A stretch of 64,000 bases of DNA from a bacterium (GTDB lineage: Bacteria; UBA8248), in assembly GCA_022828125.1 (NCBI GenBank), contig JAJEJD010000020.1:1-64000 (forward strand). Reading direction: 5' to 3'. Positions within the stretch are counted from its first letter, which is position 1; each line of letters opens with the position of its first letter. A model generated the notes under the pieces. That model was not told where the DNA came from and made no database searches. It was given only the letters and a program-made list of their open reading frames with translations. Positions 622 through 41,949 of this stretch are shown one piece after another. The position numbers and the translations under genes were made by a program.

Positions 622-1488
622 TCAGGACGCGCCCAGCGCCTTCAGGACGGTGCGCCGAACCAGGACGGGCGTCACCTGCCTTCTGTAGTCGCTGCTCGCG
701 CGGATATCGGTCAATGGCTCGAGATCATCGAGCGTATCCGCGAGCACGGCGTCGATGTTCTCCTGGTTGAGTTCCTTGCCCCGGAGCCCCTCTTCCACCG
801 CCGTGAGGCGCCTGAATACGGCCTCCACGCCGCCCAGGCCGATCCTCACTTCTTTCGCAGTTTTACCGTCTTCTTCGGTGAGCACAGCCGTCGAGACGGA
901 TACGCAGGGTTTGTCCTCTTTCGAGCGCGTGGTGAAGCGCGTGCACGCCGTCCGGAAGCCATCGGGCAGCGGGTCGACTTCGATCGAACACAACAATTCA
1001 TCCTCATCCAGGGCGCACTCGTAATATCCCGTCCAGAACTCCGCCGCGGGAATCACGCGCTCGGAGCCGTCCGCCTTTTTGGTGTTCATCCTGGCCTCGA
1101 GAGCCAGAAATGCGCCCGGTGGGTCGGAGGCCGGTTCCGCAAAGCACAGGTTGCCGCCCACCGTCCCCTGGTTCCGGATGCGAATGGTCGCCACGTTGTG
1201 GAAGATTTCCGCAAGCAGCGGGAATCGCTCCTGAACGAGCGGAGAGGTTTCGATCTTGCGATGCACCGTCTTCGCCCCGATGCGGAGGCCGCCGTTTTCG
1301 GTTCCTTCGATGAAATCCAGGTCCCCCGCTCCGGCGATGTCAATCAACACCTCGGGTTCGTATACCCGCGATTTCATGAGAATCGAGAGGGCGACGCCGC
1401 CTGCGAACACTTTCCCGTCTTCGCCATGCTCCTTCAGGGCGGCGAGCGTTTCATCCGCGCTGTTCGCGGGTAGATGCCGAAAAGCCAT
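622..1488 (-). CDS. FAD-binding subunit of a xanthine dehydrogenase / CoxM-type molybdenum hydroxylase
   Basis: This 288-aa protein has the length and layout of the medium (FAD) subunit of molybdenum hydroxylases, which passes electrons from the iron-sulfur subunit to an acceptor. The N-terminal FAD domain holds the AGGVALSILMKSRV loop (about residues 30-43) and ATIRIRNQGTVGGNLCFAEP (about 99-118), matching the TIGGN-type FAD pyrophosphate-binding motif. The C-terminal part matches the CO-dehydrogenase flavoprotein C-terminal domain. The ATG at 1488 follows a GGAGAGGGGAG Shine-Dalgarno sequence. It begins 20 nt after the stop of the large molybdopterin subunit, so the two form an operon. The usual third subunit, the small 2Fe-2S protein, is not next to them. 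The substrate cannot be told from sequence. Confidence 0.88.
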   Translation of the reverse strand: MAFRHLPANSADETLAALKEHGEDGKVFAGGVALSILMKSRVYEPEVLIDIAGAGDLDFIEGTENGGLRIGAKTVHRKIETSPLVQERFPLLAEIFHNVATIRIRNQGTVGGNLCFAEPASDPPGAFLALEARMNTKKADGSERVIPAAEFWTGYYECALDEDELLCSIEVDPLPDGFRTACTRFTTRSKEDKPCVSVSTAVLTEEDGKTAKEVRIGLGGVEAVFRRLTAVEEGLRGKELNQENIDAVLADTLDDLEPLTDIRASSDYRRQVTPVLVRRTVLKALGAS

Positions 1489-1508
1489 TTTTTTCTCCCC
1501 TCTCCTCG

Positions 1509-3794
1509 TTATTCGCCGTTTTTCTCGTTCAACGCTGTCAGCACCTTTTCCGGCGTTATCGGCAGCGACGTGATCCGCACGCCGACGGCGTCGTAGATCG
1601 CGTTGCCTATCGCCGCCGAGGTCCCCAGTTGCGCCATCTCACCCAGCCCCTTTGCCCCGAAAGGCCCGGAGGGATTCTCCGTCTCGATGAGCACCGCCTC
1701 GAGCTCGGGCAAATCCTGGGTGGTAGGCAACTTGTAGTCGAGCCAGTTCGGATTCACCGGCATGCCGTCTTCGACCTCGAAATCCTCCATCATGGCGTAG
1801 CCCACGCCCATGACCGCGCCGCCGTCCAACTGGCCCTGCGCGCCGGCGGGGTTCACGATGGTTCCGCAGTCGTTCGTGCTGATGACGCGCAATACCTCGA
1901 ACGCGCCGGTTTCGGTGTCCACTTCCACTTCCGCCACCTTCGCGCCGTAGGCGTAGGCCGCGGACCAGTTCCCGTAACCCGTCACAGGGTCGGGCGTCTC
2001 GCTCGGCGAGTCGTAAGAAGACGCCGTGTAGACGGCCTCACTGCCCTCTTTCTCGTATATCTTCATGTAGGCTTCACTGTGGGTCACCTGCCGCTCGGGA
2101 GAGCTGGTGACGAAAATCTTGCCCTCGCGGGCGTCGAGATCGTTCGGGTCGCATTCGAGCAATTCCGCCGCGCCCTTGAAAAGCATGTTCCTCGCCTGAA
2201 CCGACGCCAGGCGAGTGGCCTCGCCGTCGATGGTCGTCGTGCGGCTTCCGCGCACACCCCACCCGTAGGGGTTCACCGCGGTATCGCCGTTGATGATCCG
2301 CACGTCTTCCACGCGTACCCCAATCGCCTCGGCGCAAATCTGCGCCAGCGTGGTGTCCGAGCCGTTGCCCATCTCGATGGTGCCCGAGAGCAGCTGCACG
2401 GTGCCGTCCTTGTTCATCTTGATGAACGCGCCCGCCGTCTCCGGCCCCATCGCGCGCGCTCCGGTGAAGTGAACCGCCGCGGCCAGCCCGTAGCCGCGCC
2501 TTTTCCCGTTGCTGCTCGGCTGCTTCTCGCGCCAGGGTACGCGCTTGACCGCCTCCTCCACGCATTCGGAAACGCCGCAACTGGTGATCTTGGCCCCGAT
2601 GATGGTGGTGTCGCCCTTTTTCACGAAGTTCTTGATGCGAAACTCCGCCGGGTCCATGCCGATCTCCTCGGCGTGTTTCTCCATGGCGAGTTCGGAGCCG
2701 AACGCATAGCCGGCGTTGCCGATTCCGCGCATCGCGCCGCCGGGCGGCACGTTCGTGCAGACGACGTCGGCGTGGTGGCGATAAGCCTTGTAGTTGTAGA
2801 TGCTCCCGCCCATGTGCGCCGTGATGCCGCCGACCGCCGGGCCGTAATCCGAATAGCCGCCGTTTTCCACCACCATCTTGGTGTCGCGCGCGAGCAGCAT
2901 GCCGTCCTTGTCGGTGGCGATGCGCCAGACGTGAAACTGCTTCGTCCGGTGGGTGCCGAGGAGGAACTCCTCTTCGCGCGTGTAATAGAATTTCACGGGG
3001 CGGTCCAGCATTTTCGCCGCGATGATGGAGAGGAAATCGATGTTGAACTTGCTCGTCGCCTTGCCGCCGAAACCCCCGCCTACGTAGTTCGTGATGACGC
3101 GAATCTGGGCCTCGGGAATCTTCAGAAGCTTCGCGAAATACTGGCTCGAAAGACTCGGGCACTGCGAGGAGTTGTAGACCGTCACGTCGCCCTTGCGCGA
3201 CCACTCGGCGATGGAGACGTGCGCCTCCAGGGAGCCGTGCATCTGGCGCGAGGAGGCGGTGGCCAACTCGCTCACGTGGTGGGCTTCGTCGAACATCCTG
3301 TCCACGTCGCCGAATTCCATGTGCTTGGTGAAGGCGATGTTGTTCGGGTACCTGTCGTGGATGACGGGGGCCCCTTCTTCCATCGCTTCTCTCGGATCGA
3401 ACACGGCGGGAAGCTCCTCGTAGTCGACGTCGATCAGATCGAGCGCTTCTACCGCGATGTCTTCTGAAGTCGCGATAACAGCCGCCACCGAGTCGCCCAC
3501 ATGGCGCACCTTGTCCGATGCGAGGGGGCGCTGATCGTAGCAAACGGGTACGACGCCCCATTCCACTCCCTCGGGGATGTCCTTGTACGTCAATATGCGC
3601 TTGACGCCGGGGAGCTTCTCGGCGCGGCTGGTGTCGATGTTCTTGATCCGCGCGTGCGGCAGGGGACTCCCCAGAAGCCTCCCGTGGAGCATTTTGGGCA
3701 ACTGCAGGTCCAGGGTGAACATGGCCCGGCCCGTCACCTTTTCCGGTCCGTCGACGCGGGGTATGCTTTTCCCGATGTATGAGAGTTCAGCCAT
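1509..3794 (-). CDS. Molybdopterin-binding subunit of a xanthine dehydrogenase-family hydroxylase
   Basis: This 761-aa large subunit hydroxylates an aromatic or heterocyclic carbon or an aldehyde using molybdopterin and water. The N-terminus (GKSIPRVDGPEKVTGRAMFT) is the usual aldehyde-oxidase/xanthine-dehydrogenase a/b hammerhead start. VGGGFGGKATSKFNID at about residues 243-258 is a molybdopterin-contact loop. GPFGAKGLGEMAQLG near the C-terminus carries the conserved GLGE glutamate that acts as catalytic base. The CODH signature AYRCSFR is absent, so this is not a true CO dehydrogenase. The ATG at 3794 was chosen because GGAGG lies 5 nt upstream; an in-frame GTG at 3806 lacks that support. 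It is followed after 20 nt by the FAD subunit. The substrate is unknown. Confidence 0.88.
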   Translation of the reverse strand: MAELSYIGKSIPRVDGPEKVTGRAMFTLDLQLPKMLHGRLLGSPLPHARIKNIDTSRAEKLPGVKRILTYKDIPEGVEWGVVPVCYDQRPLASDKVRHVGDSVAAVIATSEDIAVEALDLIDVDYEELPAVFDPREAMEEGAPVIHDRYPNNIAFTKHMEFGDVDRMFDEAHHVSELATASSRQMHGSLEAHVSIAEWSRKGDVTVYNSSQCPSLSSQYFAKLLKIPEAQIRVITNYVGGGFGGKATSKFNIDFLSIIAAKMLDRPVKFYYTREEEFLLGTHRTKQFHVWRIATDKDGMLLARDTKMVVENGGYSDYGPAVGGITAHMGGSIYNYKAYRHHADVVCTNVPPGGAMRGIGNAGYAFGSELAMEKHAEEIGMDPAEFRIKNFVKKGDTTIIGAKITSCGVSECVEEAVKRVPWREKQPSSNGKRRGYGLAAAVHFTGARAMGPETAGAFIKMNKDGTVQLLSGTIEMGNGSDTTLAQICAEAIGVRVEDVRIINGDTAVNPYGWGVRGSRTTTIDGEATRLASVQARNMLFKGAAELLECDPNDLDAREGKIFVTSSPERQVTHSEAYMKIYEKEGSEAVYTASSYDSPSETPDPVTGYGNWSAAYAYGAKVAEVEVDTETGAFEVLRVISTNDCGTIVNPAGAQGQLDGGAVMGVGYAMMEDFEVEDGMPVNPNWLDYKLPTTQDLPELEAVLIETENPSGPFGAKGLGEMAQLGTSAAIGNAIYDAVGVRITSLPITPEKVLTALNEKNGE

Positions 3795-4136
3795 CACAAC
3801 CTCCACTCGTTTGCGGCGCCGAACCGCATGCCGCAGGGCGTTTTTATATTCTTATCCTTTGTTTGATTTTCGAATGAACAGACCATTCCTCCATCGCCAT
3901 CCCCTTGGGACCCGGCAGAACGCGATGGCTCTTCCCTTGCTTTCGATGTGCGAAGTATAACAACTCGAAACGCAAAACAAAACCTCAAAATATCGGAGCC
4001 GGACCCCATGCGCACCATTTCCGGAACCCTCTGCGCCTGCTTTCTCCCCTTCGGTTTGTGGTGTATCATCCGCCGTATTGAAACCGGAAAATAAATTTTC
4101 GAAACATCCCAAAACCACCAGAACTGGAGTATCGCA
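3795..4136. other. Intergenic region between divergent operons
   Basis: These 342 nt separate the minus-strand molybdenum hydroxylase genes from the plus-strand SDR/rhodanese operon and must hold both promoters. The part near 3840-3890 is AT-rich. I see no ORF with protein-like composition, no RNA gene and no convincing operator. Confidence 0.5.
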
Positions 4137-4883
4137 ATGCCCATTCGTTTTGATTTTCAGGGCCGAAAGGTCATTCTCACGGGCGCGGCGGGCGCGATGG
4201 GAAGCCGCATCCTGCAGGGATACATCGAGGCCGGCGCCAGGGTTTTCGCCACCGACAGGGAAGGCCCGGCGTTCGACGCGATCGAAGGTCCATCGGATCA
4301 GCTCTTCAAGCTCCCCTGCGACCTGGCCGACGTGGACGCCATCCGCACCACCATGCGCGCGGCGCTCGAATGGCTGGGCGGCTGCGACGTGCTGGCGAAC
4401 GTGGCCGGCTACATGCCGATTCGCCCGCCGATGGAACTCGAAGAGGAAGACTGGAACGTCGTGCTGAACGTGAACCTGCTGGCGCCCTATTTCTGCATCC
4501 AGGAGACCATCGAGGCGCTCAAGGCCTCGGGCACGGGGCGCATCGTCAGCTTCGCGTCCATCGCGGGGAAAATGGGGGGCATCGGCCCCAACCTCACCTA
4601 CTCCGCCGCCAAGGCGGGCCTGCTCGCCATGACGTTCAACCTCGCGCGCGAACTCGCCAAGACGGGCGTGACGATCAACACCATACAGCCGGGCCCGGCG
4701 GATACGGGCCTTCATTTCCAGTCCCCGCCCGAGATGCTCGTGAACGCGGAGAAGGCCCACCCCATGGGCAGGCTCACGACGCCCGAGGACGTGTGGCAGA
4801 CCGTCCTGTTCCTCTCGAGCGAGGAGGCCGCCCACATCAACGGCGAGGCGGTGGACGTGAACGGCGGCTTCTGGACGGACTAG
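4137..4883 (+). CDS. SDR-family NAD(P)-dependent oxidoreductase
   Basis: This is a classical short-chain dehydrogenase of 248 aa. The nucleotide-binding glycine motif appears as TGAAGAMGSRI (about residues 18-28), where classical members have TGxxxGxG. NVAGYMP corresponds to the NNAG motif near residue 86. The catalytic Ser is in FASIAGKMGG, and the Tyr and Lys are in YSAAKAG. The C-terminus ends VDVNGGFWTD, the usual end of classical SDRs. It would oxidise or reduce an alcohol/ketone in the cytoplasm; the substrate is not predictable. The selenocysteine rhodanese starts 12 nt after its stop codon behind an AGGAGG sequence, so the two are co-transcribed and probably co-translated. Confidence 0.88.
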   Translation: MPIRFDFQGRKVILTGAAGAMGSRILQGYIEAGARVFATDREGPAFDAIEGPSDQLFKLPCDLADVDAIRTTMRAALEWLGGCDVLANVAGYMPIRPPMELEEEDWNVVLNVNLLAPYFCIQETIEALKASGTGRIVSFASIAGKMGGIGPNLTYSAAKAGLLAMTFNLARELAKTGVTINTIQPGPADTGLHFQSPPEMLVNAEKAHPMGRLTTPEDVWQTVLFLSSEEAAHINGEAVDVNGGFWTD

Positions 4884-4895
4884 GAGGAGAACACC

Positions 4896-5732
4896 ATGCC
4901 GAGCGACAACCCGAAAGGCTATGCGAACCCCGACTTGCTCTGGTCGGCAGCACTTCTCAAAGAGCGCATGGACGACCCGAATTTAAGAATCATCGACACG
5001 CGCCCCGGCGAGCGCTACACGATGGGCCACATCCCCGGCGCGCGGCACTTCGACGTCTACGGCGTGAACAGCGACGACTCGGACGAGGCCCCCTTGAGGA
5101 ATTTCTTCTCCATGTGGGCGTTCCTGCTGGGAAACCGCGGGGTGTCGTTCGAGAACACCATCGTCTTCTACGACGATTTCGTCGGCAACACGAGCGTGCG
5201 CGGCTTCTGGATGCTGGAGCTTTTCGGCCACAAGGACGTCCACGTGCTCGACGGCGGCTACGGCGCCTGGGAGCGGGCGGGCTATGAGACGACGCGCGAC
5301 GCCGAGGTACCCAAGGCCGCCGCATTCAAGATGGCGTTCGAGCCGGATCGCCTCGCCACGCGCGAGGACGTGCTGGCAGCCATCGAGGATGACAACCACA
5401 TGCTGCTCGACACCCGCTCGGCAGAAGAATGGGAGGGGCGCAGCATGCGCGCCAGGCGGAGCGGCATCATCCCCGGCGCGGTCTGGCAGGAATGGCTCCA
5501 GCACCTGACGCCTGAGGGCGAGATGAAACCGGCGGACGAGCTTCGCGCGCAGTTCGAAGCTATCGGGGTCACGCCCGAGAAAGAAGTGACCGCCTACTGA
5601 CAGACGGGCTACCGTGCGGCGCACGGTTACTTCGCCCTGCGGCTCCTGAATTACCCCAGAGTGAGGAACTACATGAGCTCCTGGAAGGAATGGGGCAACC
5701 GCGACGATACGCCCATCGTCCAGGCGCAATAG
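4896..5732 (+). CDS. Selenocysteine-containing two-domain rhodanese (sulfurtransferase), Sec at residue 235
   Basis: Read through the in-frame TGA at 5598-5600, this is a complete 278-aa tandem-rhodanese protein of the thiosulfate/3-mercaptopyruvate sulfurtransferase type. The N-terminal domain (residues 1-130) carries IIDTRPGERYTMGHIPGARH and has no catalytic Cys, as is usual for the inactive domain. The C-terminal domain has LLDTRSAEEWEG, GIIPGAVWQEW, then TAY-U-QTGYRAAHGYF. The TGA falls exactly on the catalytic Cys of the C-x-x-G-x-R active-site loop. The 43 residues after it (ending YMSSWKEWGNRDDTPIVQAQ, TAG at 5730-5732) match the standard rhodanese C-terminus (GSWxEWGNRDDxP). Such conservation past a stop would not survive in a dead gene. 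A SECIS-like hairpin follows at once. Sec would carry the persulfide-like selenenylsulfide. The start is ATG 4896 behind AGGAGG; the gene follows an SDR and precedes an ABC importer. Standard gene callers would stop it at 234 aa. Confidence 0.93.
5598..5640 (+). promoter_or_regulatory. UGA Sec codon and bacterial SECIS-like hairpin in the rhodanese gene
   Basis: The TGA occupies 5598-5600. ACCGTGC (5611-5617), loop GGC (5618-5620) and GCACGGT (5621-5627) form a perfect 7-bp stem. The loop starts 17 nt after the TGA and its first two bases are G. A lower helix can form from GGC 5607-5609 with GCC 5634-5636 and CAG 5601-5603 with CTG 5637-5639. Known bacterial SECIS elements have a small loop with G in the first two positions at roughly this distance, and bind SelB. 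The fit is by eye; no folding energy was computed. Confidence 0.85.
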
Positions 5733-5896: not shown

Positions 5897-6913
5897 ATGA
5901 AGAGGTATTTCACCCGCATCACACTGGCCGTCGCGTTTGCATTCGCGCTCTCGGCGGCGGGGGTCGCCTCGGCGGCACCCACGCTCAAGCTCGGCGCCGC
6001 CAGCAACACCGGCGGCATGATCGTCTTCGTCGGCGTCGACAAGGGCTTCTTCGCCAAGAACGGGCTGGACGGGAAAGTCGTCGTGCGCAACACGGGCGCC
6101 CAGCTCACCAAATCCCTGAAGGCCGGACAGATCGACTTCGCTCCCGCCGCGTTCACCAACCTGCCGGCGGCGCTCGAGCGCGGCATCAAGGTGCGCGGCG
6201 TCGTGGGCTACGTCGGCGGCTCCTACAAGAAATCCACCACGGACGAGATGGTGGGCATCGCCGTGCGCCCCGGAAAGGGCATCAAGAGCATCAAGGACTT
6301 GAAGGGCAAGAAGATCGGCGCCACCTTCGGCTCAACCGGCGACCTCTACCTCCGCACCCTGCTGGAGAGGAACGGCATCGGCGTGGGCGGCGTGCGCCGC
6401 ATCAACGTGCGTCCGCCGAGCCTCGTCTCGCTGTTCGACTCGGGCGGCGTGGACGCCATGGTGGCGTGGGAACCCTATCTCACCCGCATGGTCGATAAGG
6501 TGAAGGGTTCCTCCATCGTGTCGCGCGGCGGCGACTACGTGTGCTTCTGCGCGGGCATGCACGGCGTGCCCGAACGCGTCTACAAGGACAAGAAGGCGAC
6601 CCAGGCCTTCGTGAACGGGATGTCCGAGGCGGCCGCGTACGTGCGCGACCCCAAGAACATCGATGAGATCTCGAAAATCGGCGCGCGCTACGTCCGCGGC
6701 ATGGACGCCGCCCTCATCAAGCGCACCATCAAGTGGTGGACGTATGACACGCGCCTGGGCGAGAACACGCTCAAGGCCTTCAACTTCTCGGTGAAGCAGC
6801 TCATCGCCCAGAAGAAGATGAAGCGCCCCTACGACCCCAAGAAATACTTCGACTTCCAGTTCATCAACCGGACCATGAAGGAACATCCCGAGTGGTTCAA
6901 GGACCTCAAATAG
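5897..6913 (+). CDS. ABC transporter substrate-binding protein, NMT1/SsuA/TauA type
   Basis: This 338-aa periplasmic binding protein starts with a clear signal peptide (MKRYFTRITLAVAFAFALSA, cleavage after ASA near residue 28). It continues with the SsuA/THI5-like fold: LGAASNTGGMIVFVGVDKGF, then LKAGQIDFAPAAFTNLPAAL, then IKDLKGKKIGATFGSTGDLY and DAMVAWEPYL. This family delivers sulfonates, nitrate, taurine, pyrimidines or aromatic acids to a membrane importer. The ATG at 5897 has TTGGAGG 6 nt upstream; the in-frame ATG at 5855 does not. It is first in an importer operon with an ATPase and two permeases. The ligand cannot be read from sequence; the upstream sulfurtransferase makes a sulfur compound one possibility. 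Confidence 0.88.
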   Translation: MKRYFTRITLAVAFAFALSAAGVASAAPTLKLGAASNTGGMIVFVGVDKGFFAKNGLDGKVVVRNTGAQLTKSLKAGQIDFAPAAFTNLPAALERGIKVRGVVGYVGGSYKKSTTDEMVGIAVRPGKGIKSIKDLKGKKIGATFGSTGDLYLRTLLERNGIGVGGVRRINVRPPSLVSLFDSGGVDAMVAWEPYLTRMVDKVKGSSIVSRGGDYVCFCAGMHGVPERVYKDKKATQAFVNGMSEAAAYVRDPKNIDEISKIGARYVRGMDAALIKRTIKWWTYDTRLGENTLKAFNFSVKQLIAQKKMKRPYDPKKYFDFQFINRTMKEHPEWFKDLK

Positions 6914-6986: not shown

Positions 6987-7775
6987 ATGCCGGCAAAACT
7001 GGTCGTCGAGGGACTATCGCACCATTATCCGGACGAATACACGGGCGAGGACGTGCACGCCCTCGATCGGGTGAGCCTCTCTGTCGAGGACGGCGAGTTC
7101 TCCGCCGTCGTCGGCCCGAGCGGCTGCGGCAAGACCACGCTCTTGAACATCCTGGCGGGCCTTCTCCCCCACACCGAGGGCAGCGTGCAGGTGGACGGCA
7201 AGGAGGTGGGGGGGCCGGGTCCCGACCGGGGCGTAGTATTTCAGGAACACGCCATCCTCCCCTGGCGCACCGTGGCGAGAAACATCGGCCACGGCCTGGA
7301 GATTCAGGGCGTCGCCAGGAGCGAGCGGGAACAGAGGGTGCAGGAGTTCGTCGACCTGGTCGGCCTCTCGGGTTTCGAGGACCGCTATCCACACGAGCTC
7401 TCGGGCGGCATGAAGCAGCGCTGCGCCCTCGCTCGGACGCTTTGCGCAAACCCCGTCGTGATGCTCATGGACGAGCCCTTCGCCGCCGTGGACGCGCAGA
7501 CGAGAATCACCCTGCAGGAAGAGCTGAACCGCATCGCCATCGCGACGAAAAAAACGATTCTCTTCATCACGCACAACGTGGATGAGGCCGCGTTCCTGGG
7601 CGATAGATGCTTCATCTTCTCGCGCCGACCGGGGAAGCTGAAAGCTACCGTCAAGATCAACGTGCCGCGCGAAAAACGCATCTGGAAGGACCTGCTCTCC
7701 GAGAAGGCCTACACCGACCCGCGCGATGAAATTCTCCGCCTCGTGCGCGAGGAGGTGTTCGATGACGAGGAGTAG
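6987..7775 (+). CDS. ABC transporter ATP-binding protein, SsuB/TauB type
   Basis: This 262-aa cytoplasmic ATPase powers the importer. Walker A is VGPSGCGKTTLLN (about residues 45-57), the Q-loop is VVFQEHAILPW, the ABC signature is LSGGMKQRCALART, Walker B is VVMLMDEPFAAVD, and the switch histidine is in LFITHNVDEA. The Q-loop and signature are characteristic of the nitrate/sulfonate/taurine subfamily. ATG 6987 has GAGAGGA upstream and fits better than the in-frame ATG at 6969. The end overlaps the start of the first permease by 14 nt, which points to coupled translation. Confidence 0.92.
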   Translation: MPAKLVVEGLSHHYPDEYTGEDVHALDRVSLSVEDGEFSAVVGPSGCGKTTLLNILAGLLPHTEGSVQVDGKEVGGPGPDRGVVFQEHAILPWRTVARNIGHGLEIQGVARSEREQRVQEFVDLVGLSGFEDRYPHELSGGMKQRCALARTLCANPVVMLMDEPFAAVDAQTRITLQEELNRIAIATKKTILFITHNVDEAAFLGDRCFIFSRRPGKLKATVKINVPREKRIWKDLLSEKAYTDPRDEILRLVREEVFDDEE

Positions 7776-8586
7776 CGAGGCGGCCCCAGTGAAAAAGCCG
7801 CCATCGAGGCAGTGGAGAAGGTTCGTCAGGGGCGGCGGTATCGAACTCATGCTCCTCATCGCGGGTATTCTCGTCCTGTGGAGCGTTATCTCCGAGAACA
7901 TCCCCAACCCGAGCCGATACCTCCCCTCGCCCGTCTCGGTCGTCCTGTCTTCCTACGACGTCATCTGGAAGGGTCTGTTGCCGAACTACATCGGCCAGAC
8001 GCTGTGGCGGCTCGTCATCGGCAGCGCCATCGGCCTGCTGCTCGGCATCCCCTTCGGCATCGCCCTGGGGCTGAACCGCACCGTCTCGGACATGTTCTAT
8101 CCCATCATGAACTTCTTTCAGTCCATATCGGGCATCGCCATCCTCCCCATCATCGTCGTCTGGTGGGGCAACAGCGAGAAGACGGTCTTCGTCGTCATCC
8201 TCTACACCTGCTTTTTCCCCATCGCCTTCAACGTCCTGACGGGTGTGCGCAGCACCCCGATGATCCTGGTGAACGCCCTGCGCACGCTCGGCGCCTCGCG
8301 GCTGAGGATCGTGAAGGACGTGTTGATCCCGAGCGCCATGCCCCACATCGCCACAGGGGCGCGGCTTGGCATCGGCTACGCCTGGCGGGCCGTCATCGCG
8401 GGCGAGATGCTCGCGGGCAGGCGCGGCCTGGGGTGGATGATCTTCACCTCACAGGACGCGGACCTCACCGCCCAGGTCATCCTCGGCATGGTGATGATCG
8501 GCGTCATCTGGATCATGATCGACCGCTTCGCCCTGCGCCCCATCGAGGCGGACACCATTCAGCGTTGGGGGCTCGTCCAGCGATGA
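7762..8586 (+). CDS. ABC transporter permease, SsuC/TauC type (first of two)
   Basis: This 274-aa inner-membrane protein has about six membrane spans: an N-terminal span at ELMLLIAGILVLWSVI, a pair around LWRLVIGSAIGLLLGIPFGI, and the rest in the C-terminal half. The EAA-type coupling loop is VNALRTLGASRLRIVKDVLI, followed by P-x-A-x-P-H. The ATG at 7762 lies inside the end of the ATPase gene; upstream in-frame starts would only add unconserved sequence. Its TGA stop overlaps the ATG of the second permease (ATGA, 8583-8586). Two permeases instead of a homodimer imply a heterodimeric channel. Confidence 0.9.
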   Translation: MTRSSEAAPVKKPPSRQWRRFVRGGGIELMLLIAGILVLWSVISENIPNPSRYLPSPVSVVLSSYDVIWKGLLPNYIGQTLWRLVIGSAIGLLLGIPFGIALGLNRTVSDMFYPIMNFFQSISGIAILPIIVVWWGNSEKTVFVVILYTCFFPIAFNVLTGVRSTPMILVNALRTLGASRLRIVKDVLIPSAMPHIATGARLGIGYAWRAVIAGEMLAGRRGLGWMIFTSQDADLTAQVILGMVMIGVIWIMIDRFALRPIEADTIQRWGLVQR

Positions 8587-9443
8587 GCGTACTCCAGGCG
8601 GCGTCCATCGGCTTACAAAAACGCTTCGGCCGCCAGCGGCTGCGGAAGATACTGCTGGGGAGCATCCCCTTCGCCGTCTTGCTCGTCATGTGGCAGATGA
8701 ACACCTCGATGGAATGGCTCCCGCCGGTGTACATTCCGCCCATCGGAACCATCTGGGAGGCAATTTACACGCTTTCGGAAGGCTGCGCGGGCGCGGGCGC
8801 CGTGCTCTCGATGCAGTACGAATGCCTGTTCACGAACCACATCCTCTCGAGCCTGGGCCGGGTGGGCCTGAGCCTCGTCATCGGCATTCCCTCGGGCATC
8901 GCCCTGGGCGTACTGGCGGGCATGAGCCGCCGCTTCGCCCACGCGCTGGAGCCCATCGGCGTATTCGCCAACGCCATATCGGGCATCGCCTGGGTGCCGC
9001 TCGCCATCGTATGGTTCGGCACCGGCTGGCTGACGACGCTCTTCATCCTGCTGAACACCGTGTTCTGGCTCATCTTCTTCAACACGCTCCTGGGCGTGCG
9101 GGGCGTGCCGAGGGTGTATGAAAACTCCGTCATGACGATGGGCGGTAACAGATGGGCCATCATCACCCAGGTCTATATCCCCGGTGCGCTGCCCAGCATC
9201 GTCACGGGCGTGCGCATGAGCATGGGCTTCGGCTGGCGCGCACTCATCGCCGCGGAGATGATCGGCGGCGACAGCGGCCTGGGTTTCATGATCTTCGTCT
9301 CCGCAGCCGAGTACAAAATCGAGGAAGTGTTCCTGGGCGTGCTCGTCATCGCCATCATGTGGATGATCACGGACAGGCTGCTCCTCATCCCGCTGGAGAG
9401 ATGGACCATCCAGCGCTGGGGCATGGTCTGGAGGCCTGACTAA
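8583..9443 (+). CDS. ABC transporter permease, SsuC/TauC type (second of two)
   Basis: This 286-aa permease is a paralogue of the gene before it. After an N-terminal span (FAVLLVMWQMNTSMEWLPPV) there is a periplasmic insert of about 35 residues (about residues 50-85, with two Cys) that the first permease lacks. The coupling loop is YENSVMTMGGNRWAIITQVY and is followed by PGALPSIVTGVRMSMGFGWR. The start ATG overlaps the previous stop as ATGA, so the two permeases are translationally coupled and probably pair in one complex. The small membrane protein that follows starts 2 nt after this stop. Confidence 0.9.
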   Translation: MSVLQAASIGLQKRFGRQRLRKILLGSIPFAVLLVMWQMNTSMEWLPPVYIPPIGTIWEAIYTLSEGCAGAGAVLSMQYECLFTNHILSSLGRVGLSLVIGIPSGIALGVLAGMSRRFAHALEPIGVFANAISGIAWVPLAIVWFGTGWLTTLFILLNTVFWLIFFNTLLGVRGVPRVYENSVMTMGGNRWAIITQVYIPGALPSIVTGVRMSMGFGWRALIAAEMIGGDSGLGFMIFVSAAEYKIEEVFLGVLVIAIMWMITDRLLLIPLERWTIQRWGMVWRPD

Positions 9444-41522: not shown

Positions 41523-41949
41523 TTCATCGCTCGCGCTTGACCCCCTGAGCAACCCGCCGCTCCGCCTCACCCTAAGTAGTCGCCCATCGATTTCGCTTGG
41601 CGCAGGCTCCGCCCCCCACCTTCCTCACCCTGAGTAGCGGCGGAGCCGCGTATCGAAGGGCGAAATTCTCGCCTCCAAGGAAGTAGCGCCTTCCATCCTT
41701 CGATACAGCGCTTACGCGCCTACTCAGGATGAGGCGAAGGTTTCGCGCAGGTCGCCGGCGAACGAATCGGTAGTAGGACAGGTCGCGACCTGTCCCTACA
41801 CCCCCCTCGCGTGGAACACTCGCTCATCGGGCTTTTCCAACAGCACCGGGCAGCGCTCCCCGACGCATCGCCAAAAGCAATGCTGGACACTTCGTTGCGC
41901 GAACACTTAGAATGATTTGCGAGGCGTCGCGCCTCACGGGGAGATTGCC
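41523..41949. repeat. Non-coding spacer with palindromic repeats upstream of the formate dehydrogenase genes
   Basis: This 427-nt spacer contains copies of a CCTCACCCTGAGTAG / CTACTCAGGATGAGG inverted repeat (about 41620-41740), with TCGAAGG and CCTTCGA inside. A palindrome of the CAGGTCGCGACCTGTCCCTA type lies near 41780-41805. No protein gene is convincing. The promoter of the formate dehydrogenase operon should lie in its last 100 nt, but no clear -35/-10 pair was found. Confidence 0.55.

Follow-up and report, generated by a model that had tools for sequence, protein, structure and literature searches.

A two-domain rhodanese with a predicted catalytic selenocysteine encoded by an in-frame TGA

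The rhodanese gene described here carries an in-frame TGA at the catalytic position of its C-terminal domain, which raises the question of whether this codon is a stop, a selenocysteine (Sec) codon or a codon read as some other residue, and what kind of enzyme would result. The gene lies in a stretch of 64,000 nucleotides (henceforth the window) with which contig C15 begins; the contig is part of a metagenome assembly of 3.9 Mb, 97% complete, of an uncultured bacterium from the UBA8248 lineage. The features relevant to this question are collected in Table 1.

Table 1. Rhodanese locus and neighbouring features, with positions numbered from the first letter of the window
Feature	Position	Strand	Remarks
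Molybdenum hydroxylase large subunit (xanthine dehydrogenase / 4-hydroxybenzoyl-CoA reductase type)	1509..3806	-	Divergent
SDR-family oxidoreductase	4137..4883	+	248 aa; directly 5' of the rhodanese gene
Shine-Dalgarno-like GGAGGA	4884..4889	+	Within the 12 bases separating the SDR and rhodanese genes; from sequence
Two-domain thiosulfate-sulfurtransferase (rhodanese), selenoprotein	4896..5732	+	278 aa; start ATG, stop TAG (5730-5732)
Asp93, N-terminal domain	5172..5174	+	Counterpart of U235 (VFY-D vs TAY-U), by alignment
Sec codon UGA (U235 of UQTGYR)	5598..5600	+	Catalytic position of the C-terminal domain
Predicted bSECIS hairpin ACCGTGC / loop GGC / GCACGGT	5611..5627	+	7 bp; 5' arm 5611-5617, loop 5618-5620, 3' arm 5621-5627
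SsuA-family substrate-binding protein	5897..6913	+	Score below family cut-off
ABC transporter ATPase (TauB/SaoA-like)	6987..7775	+	
ABC transporter permease 1 (TauC-like)	7765..8586	+	TGA stop
ABC transporter permease 2	8583..9443	+	

A rhodanese frame that continues past a TGA

When TGA is translated as Sec (U), the gene is a single open frame containing only one U, at residue 235. The original prediction had been that this codon takes the place of the catalytic Cys of the rhodanese loop and that the frame then runs on for 43 rhodanese residues to a TAG. Both statements hold, as the loop translates as UQTGYR, relatives have Cys at the site, and the 43 residues encoded downstream of the TGA are homologous to a rhodanese C-terminus. 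An automatic annotation pipeline would stop at residue 234 and so miss the active site.

The product resembles rhodaneses at every level of comparison. PF00581 matches both halves in two stretches (E 1.3e-34), indicating two domains in one chain, and a phmmer search also matched the protein to rhodaneses (E 3e-43). The AlphaFold2 model, built with C in place of U, had a mean pLDDT of 93.5, and its best matches among solved structures were the rhodaneses 1uar and 1e0c (TM 0.84-0.89). The catalytic residue belongs to the C-terminal CxxGxR/T loop, in which Sec replaces Cys and the Gly238 and Arg240 that are invariant in canonical rhodanese loops are present around it. The N-terminal domain has no catalytic residue. 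In two-domain rhodaneses the first domain is expected to be inactive, and by analogy with these enzymes the N-terminal domain, with Asp at the equivalent position, is presumably catalytically dead. With 146.6 bits, the protein does not reach the 250 bits that NCBIfam requires for 3-mercaptopyruvate sulfurtransferase (NF008557). No signal peptide was seen, so that a cytosolic location seems likely.

Decoding of the TGA

The genome encodes the complete set of components that a search prompted by the original prediction had to find, namely SelA (509.5 bits), SelB (384.5 bits, cut-off 242), SelD (334.9 bits, with an in-frame TGA of its own) and tRNA-Sec (75.9 bits, called SeC(tca) by ARAGORN). The selA, selB and selD genes are located on contig C30, i.e. 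not beside the rhodanese gene. Among the TGA-bearing relatives, SelB was not found in G006, G007 and G008, assemblies that are 79, 91 and 67% complete. SelD is itself a selenoprotein (G000:C30:4116-5078, L048), its TGA lying in GGUGSK, ten codons into the matched part, and being followed by a GGA-loop hairpin with a geometry like that of the rhodanese hairpin. The earlier observation that TGA is a normal stop in neighbouring genes was confirmed at 8584-8586, the end of the permease 1 gene, and on this ground a genome-wide recoding of TGA is ruled out.

Bacterial SECIS (bSECIS) elements are described as having a loop of 3-9 nt with a G within its first two positions, a stem of 4-16 bp, a spacing of 16-37 nt and an MFE of -7.5 or lower (PMC13188914). 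The hairpin downstream of the rhodanese TGA was found where the original prediction had placed it, with 7 bp and a G-starting loop that begins 17 nt after the TGA. Compared with the bSECIS model, as had been proposed, its loop, stem, spacing and energy all lie within the limits (-9.7 kcal/mol for the hairpin alone), and it also covaries (see below). As an estimate of chance, 35 of 3763 codons in neighbouring genes precede a rule-fitting perfect stem of at least 7 bp, and when the peptide was recoded synonymously 20,000 times, such a stem arose in 18 cases. Given that the fold energy is ordinary for GC-rich DNA (z -1.0 at 43 nt and about 0 at 50 nt), it is unusable on its own as evidence for a SECIS; the strong support comes from evolution, not energetics. 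At the corresponding site of the Cys relatives there was no such hairpin. We regard the hairpin as the SECIS of this gene.

Rfam and tRNA scans of the window found nothing. A search of the entire window for further TGAs that might be read through and have a SECIS-like hairpin gave candidates, of which the stronger or longer ones that were translated (minus strand, near 41826, 44028 and 45159) were rejected since they do not read as proteins.

The evolutionary evidence comes from 18 genomes of the phylum, all from one family and comprising six genera; the genomes compared are metagenome assemblies. The rhodanese gene was recovered in 17 of them, and in 16, belonging to four genera, the catalytic codon is TGA (74-100% identity to the window protein). 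In the remaining one, G011 of genus g4, the codon is TGC (Cys) and the protein is 70% identical; SDR genes precede it there too, which makes it an orthologue by position, and its genome has kept SelB and tRNA-Sec. Cys was also found in a second copy in G017 (59%), in the Rhodospirillaceae protein L088 (59%) and in paralogues from the same genomes (45-50%). Rhodaneses with Cys thus occur alongside the Sec form in these genomes. Aligning homologues at column 235, another of the checks put forward at the outset, thus gives Sec in 16 orthologues and Cys in relatives. The database records of the orthologues belong to assemblies of Nitrospinota and Candidatus Tectomicrobia. One of the Cys paralogues (L020, G000:C6:19845-20723; CQGGYR, 47% identity) has an insert between its two domains; it is common to the family and occurs also in Methylomirabilota and Nitrospinaceae.

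Among nine Sec orthologues, pN/pS was 0.23 upstream of the TGA and 0.27 past the hairpin, and the protein beyond the TGA is therefore as constrained as the part before it. Over the nine codons following the TGA, pS dropped to 0.09, compared with 0.55-0.61 elsewhere. Across the 16 genomes, seven of nine amino-acid-invariant codons under the hairpin were also invariant at the codon level, vs 11 of 125 elsewhere (Fisher p 7e-6, a guide value because the sequences are related). As an example, the Arg codon of the stem is CGT in all 16 orthologues, even though these GC-rich genes favour CGC and CGG and use CGT for only 23 of 340 Arg codons. This pattern of selection shows that the TGA is read through.

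A true stop, whether in a pseudogene or through a sequencing error, would leave a truncated product of 234 residues. It is true that a neighbouring gene ends in an ordinary TGA, but the same TGA recurs in 16 independent assemblies from four genera, purifying selection after it equals that before it, the hairpin is frozen, the Sec machinery is complete and the truncated product would miss the catalytic residue, all of which reduces this explanation to a negligible probability. Nothing was found in support of read-through as another residue (Trp, Cys or through a suppressor tRNA); the Cys at this site in relatives, a hairpin that fits the SelB-type SECIS model and the presence of the Sec machinery make it extremely improbable. 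The genetic evidence that the gene encodes a real selenoprotein is very strong.

Sec and Cys forms within the genus and in unrelated lineages

In a domain-wide sample of 290 genomes, Sec-type rhodaneses with TGA at the same codon (38-40% identity) were found in G065 and in G112/G250, and there too a GGC loop begins 17 nt after the TGA. The stems have changed in a compensatory manner, from A-U to U-A at the base in G112/G250 and from G-C to U-A inside the stem in G065. Two of the seven stem pairs show two-sided changes and none a one-sided change; 98% of the cells in the hairpin alignment are paired, with one unpaired cell, at the base, and slid controls performed far worse. The genomes G065, G112 and G250 contain tRNA-Sec. 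In a further genome, G056, a Sec-type TGA occupies the corresponding position, and a hairpin fitting the bSECIS model was not found there. The sampling of the phylum of G065 yielded G065 alone. The loci of the unrelated two-domain Sec forms are L142 (G056), L150/L152 (G065), L144 (G250) and L147 (G112).

The genus of the window (g1) also possesses a second two-domain Sec rhodanese, with the motif URLSHR (G000:C22:89401-90225; L115, and L136:5402-6247 on the minus strand). It resembles the window rhodanese in its two domains, in the catalytic position of Sec and in a hairpin that starts at +11 after the TGA and has a G-starting triloop. It differs in that the two proteins are only 31-33% identical and that its Sec is confined to g1, all readable genomes of this genus having TGA where the remaining genera of the family have a Cys codon. 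The hairpin has 9 bp (ACCGGGCCA/GTC/TGGTCTGGT), and Thr has been replaced by Ser where it arises.

In the trees, the Sec sequences of the family of the window rhodanese fall beside or among the Cys sequences L063, L064 and L088. A quick tree of all lineages shows four changes of state (the Sec family described here, G056, G065 and G112/G250), its well-supported branches forcing at least three, while a smaller and more careful tree shows two, with weak inner support. Most likely, the ancestral enzyme had Cys, with Sec being acquired in this family and again in other lineages. Every Sec lineage has neighbours with Cys, so that independent gains give the simpler account, although gains and losses are not fully separable on these trees. 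In the hairpin region, Ser-Ala-His-Ala of the Cys orthologue corresponds to Ala-Ala-His-Gly in the Sec forms, and these replacements give rise to the stem. The case illustrates how SECIS elements of bacteria may arise again and again within a conserved catalytic loop.

Gene context, proposed function and known rhodaneses

The original prediction had placed the gene next to an SDR and an SsuABC-type importer. The first part of this context proved constant, with the SDR adjoining the rhodanese gene upstream in 16/16 Sec loci and being present upstream of the Cys orthologue too. The importer is absent beside the gene in some close relatives. The SsuA-family gene keeps its position in many relatives, not in all, and in three members of the genus (L074, L076 and L078) SsuABC-like genes are missing after the rhodanese gene, a luciferase-like monooxygenase and a second SDR coming next instead. 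The constant unit is therefore the SDR plus the Sec rhodanese, and the importer is optional. At L135 (G009:C41, 14280-19000), several SsuA-like binding-protein genes follow the Sec rhodanese directly in tandem.

The divergent molybdenum hydroxylase pair is found in most loci whose contigs extend far enough, and a possible link to molybdenum-cofactor sulfuration was considered on the basis of gene position only. In the window, the pair (622-3806, minus strand) consists of the large and FAD subunits with no evident adjacent gene for a 2Fe-2S subunit; in G001 (L134) there is likewise no evident adjacent 2Fe-2S gene, and a porin-like gene comes next.

Taken as a whole, we consider it highly probable that the gene encodes a tandem-domain thiosulfate-sulfurtransferase with a catalytic Sec 235, whose UGA is decoded under the direction of a SECIS and which works via an Se-S intermediate. 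The computed evidence shows that SelA, SelB, SelD and tRNA-Sec decode the codon as Sec, directed by the GGC-loop hairpin, and that selection maintains the full-length product. Sec is the only candidate nucleophile of the loop. By chemical analogy, its selenolate would attack a donor of sulfane sulfur such as thiosulfate, a persulfide or a mercapto-keto acid; the UQTGYR loop would hold the resulting enzyme-bound Se-S(-) intermediate, from which sulfur would be handed to a thiol, sulfite or protein acceptor. Sulfur transfer through such an intermediate is the most likely activity we can infer. The SDR encoded upstream is its probable partner in metabolizing an organosulfur compound, a link that is a guess; some relatives would import this compound via the adjacent SsuABC-type transporter.

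A different view of the product is that it is a selenoprotein whose main role is not sulfur transfer but redox chemistry or selenium handling, e.g. reduction of peroxides or disulfides, or delivery of selenium as an enzyme-bound perselenide. Redox enzymes make up the majority of functionally known selenoproteins (PMC9312934), and a role in carrying both selenium and sulfur has been discussed for Cys rhodaneses (PMC9369223). Nevertheless, U235 sits in a canonical rhodanese loop together with the invariant Gly238 and Arg240, the modelled fold is of the thiosulfate sulfurtransferase type, the loop offers no second redox Cys or Sec (UQTG, not UxxC) and the gene lies away from selD, selA and selB. 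With these features, a mainly redox or selenium-handling role is unlikely, and a sulfurtransferase with catalytic Sec is the reading we retain.

More tentatively, and at somewhat less than even chances, tandem-domain rhodaneses may have turned from Cys to Sec several times independently (in the window family, in the URLSHR paralogue and in the unrelated lineages), mostly with the hairpin formed from one and the same part of this loop around the active site, at the price of amino-acid replacements (two in the window family, S to A and A to G, and one in the paralogue, T to S), and the Sec enzyme and the SDR may together form a dedicated, undescribed selenium-dependent organosulfur pathway.

How novel is this enzyme? 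The solved rhodaneses 1uar (Thermus thermophilus) and 1e0c (Azotobacter vinelandii) share with it the two-domain fold over the full length and the catalytic loop of domain 2, at 30-34% identity; they have Cys and not Sec, the loop of 1e0c being CQTHHR vs UQTGYR. The 3-mercaptopyruvate sulfurtransferase SseA of E. coli (1urh, NF008557) has the same fold, whereas loops of that enzyme type are of the CGSGVT type. The rhodanese-related (seleno)protein NF041203, with a CxU motif, is another rhodanese-related selenoprotein, but its model has 126 positions, one domain and a different Sec position, and the window rhodanese scores 33.1 against a cut-off of 115.

Closer counterparts belong to COG2897 and cd01449, entries that we take to be of the tandem-domain type. 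The Sargasso Sea survey of 2005 predicted a selenoprotein 'rhodanese-related sulfurtransferase' of COG2897 from three sequences, and its figure legends list the COG2897 rhodanese among families with SECIS alignments (PMC1088965). From the GOS data, Sec rhodaneses of cd01449 and COG2897 (eight and one, respectively) were predicted in 2008 (PMC2398784), and a 2026 review lists UxxG forms, including a 'rhodanese-like form 4, UxxG' (PMC13188914). By description, these predicted forms would share with the window rhodanese Sec in a COG2897/cd01449-type rhodanese, a UxxG motif and a downstream bSECIS. Given the predictions of 2005 and 2008, a tandem-domain Sec rhodanese is less novel as a kind of protein than supposed. 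Text searches of the literature did not find a biochemical study of a Sec rhodanese. The 2005 and 2008 predictions are metagenome fragments counted in tables. For the window rhodanese the lineage and the complete operon are available, its genome also encodes the Sec machinery, and there are both a Cys orthologue and a test at the level of codons. What is new is the lineage, the gene context and the evidence that Cys was converted to Sec repeatedly, each time with a similar SECIS element. The SDR is a constant partner, and a natural Cys orthologue that is 70% identical occurs in the same context, so that the benefit of selenium to a sulfurtransferase becomes directly testable.
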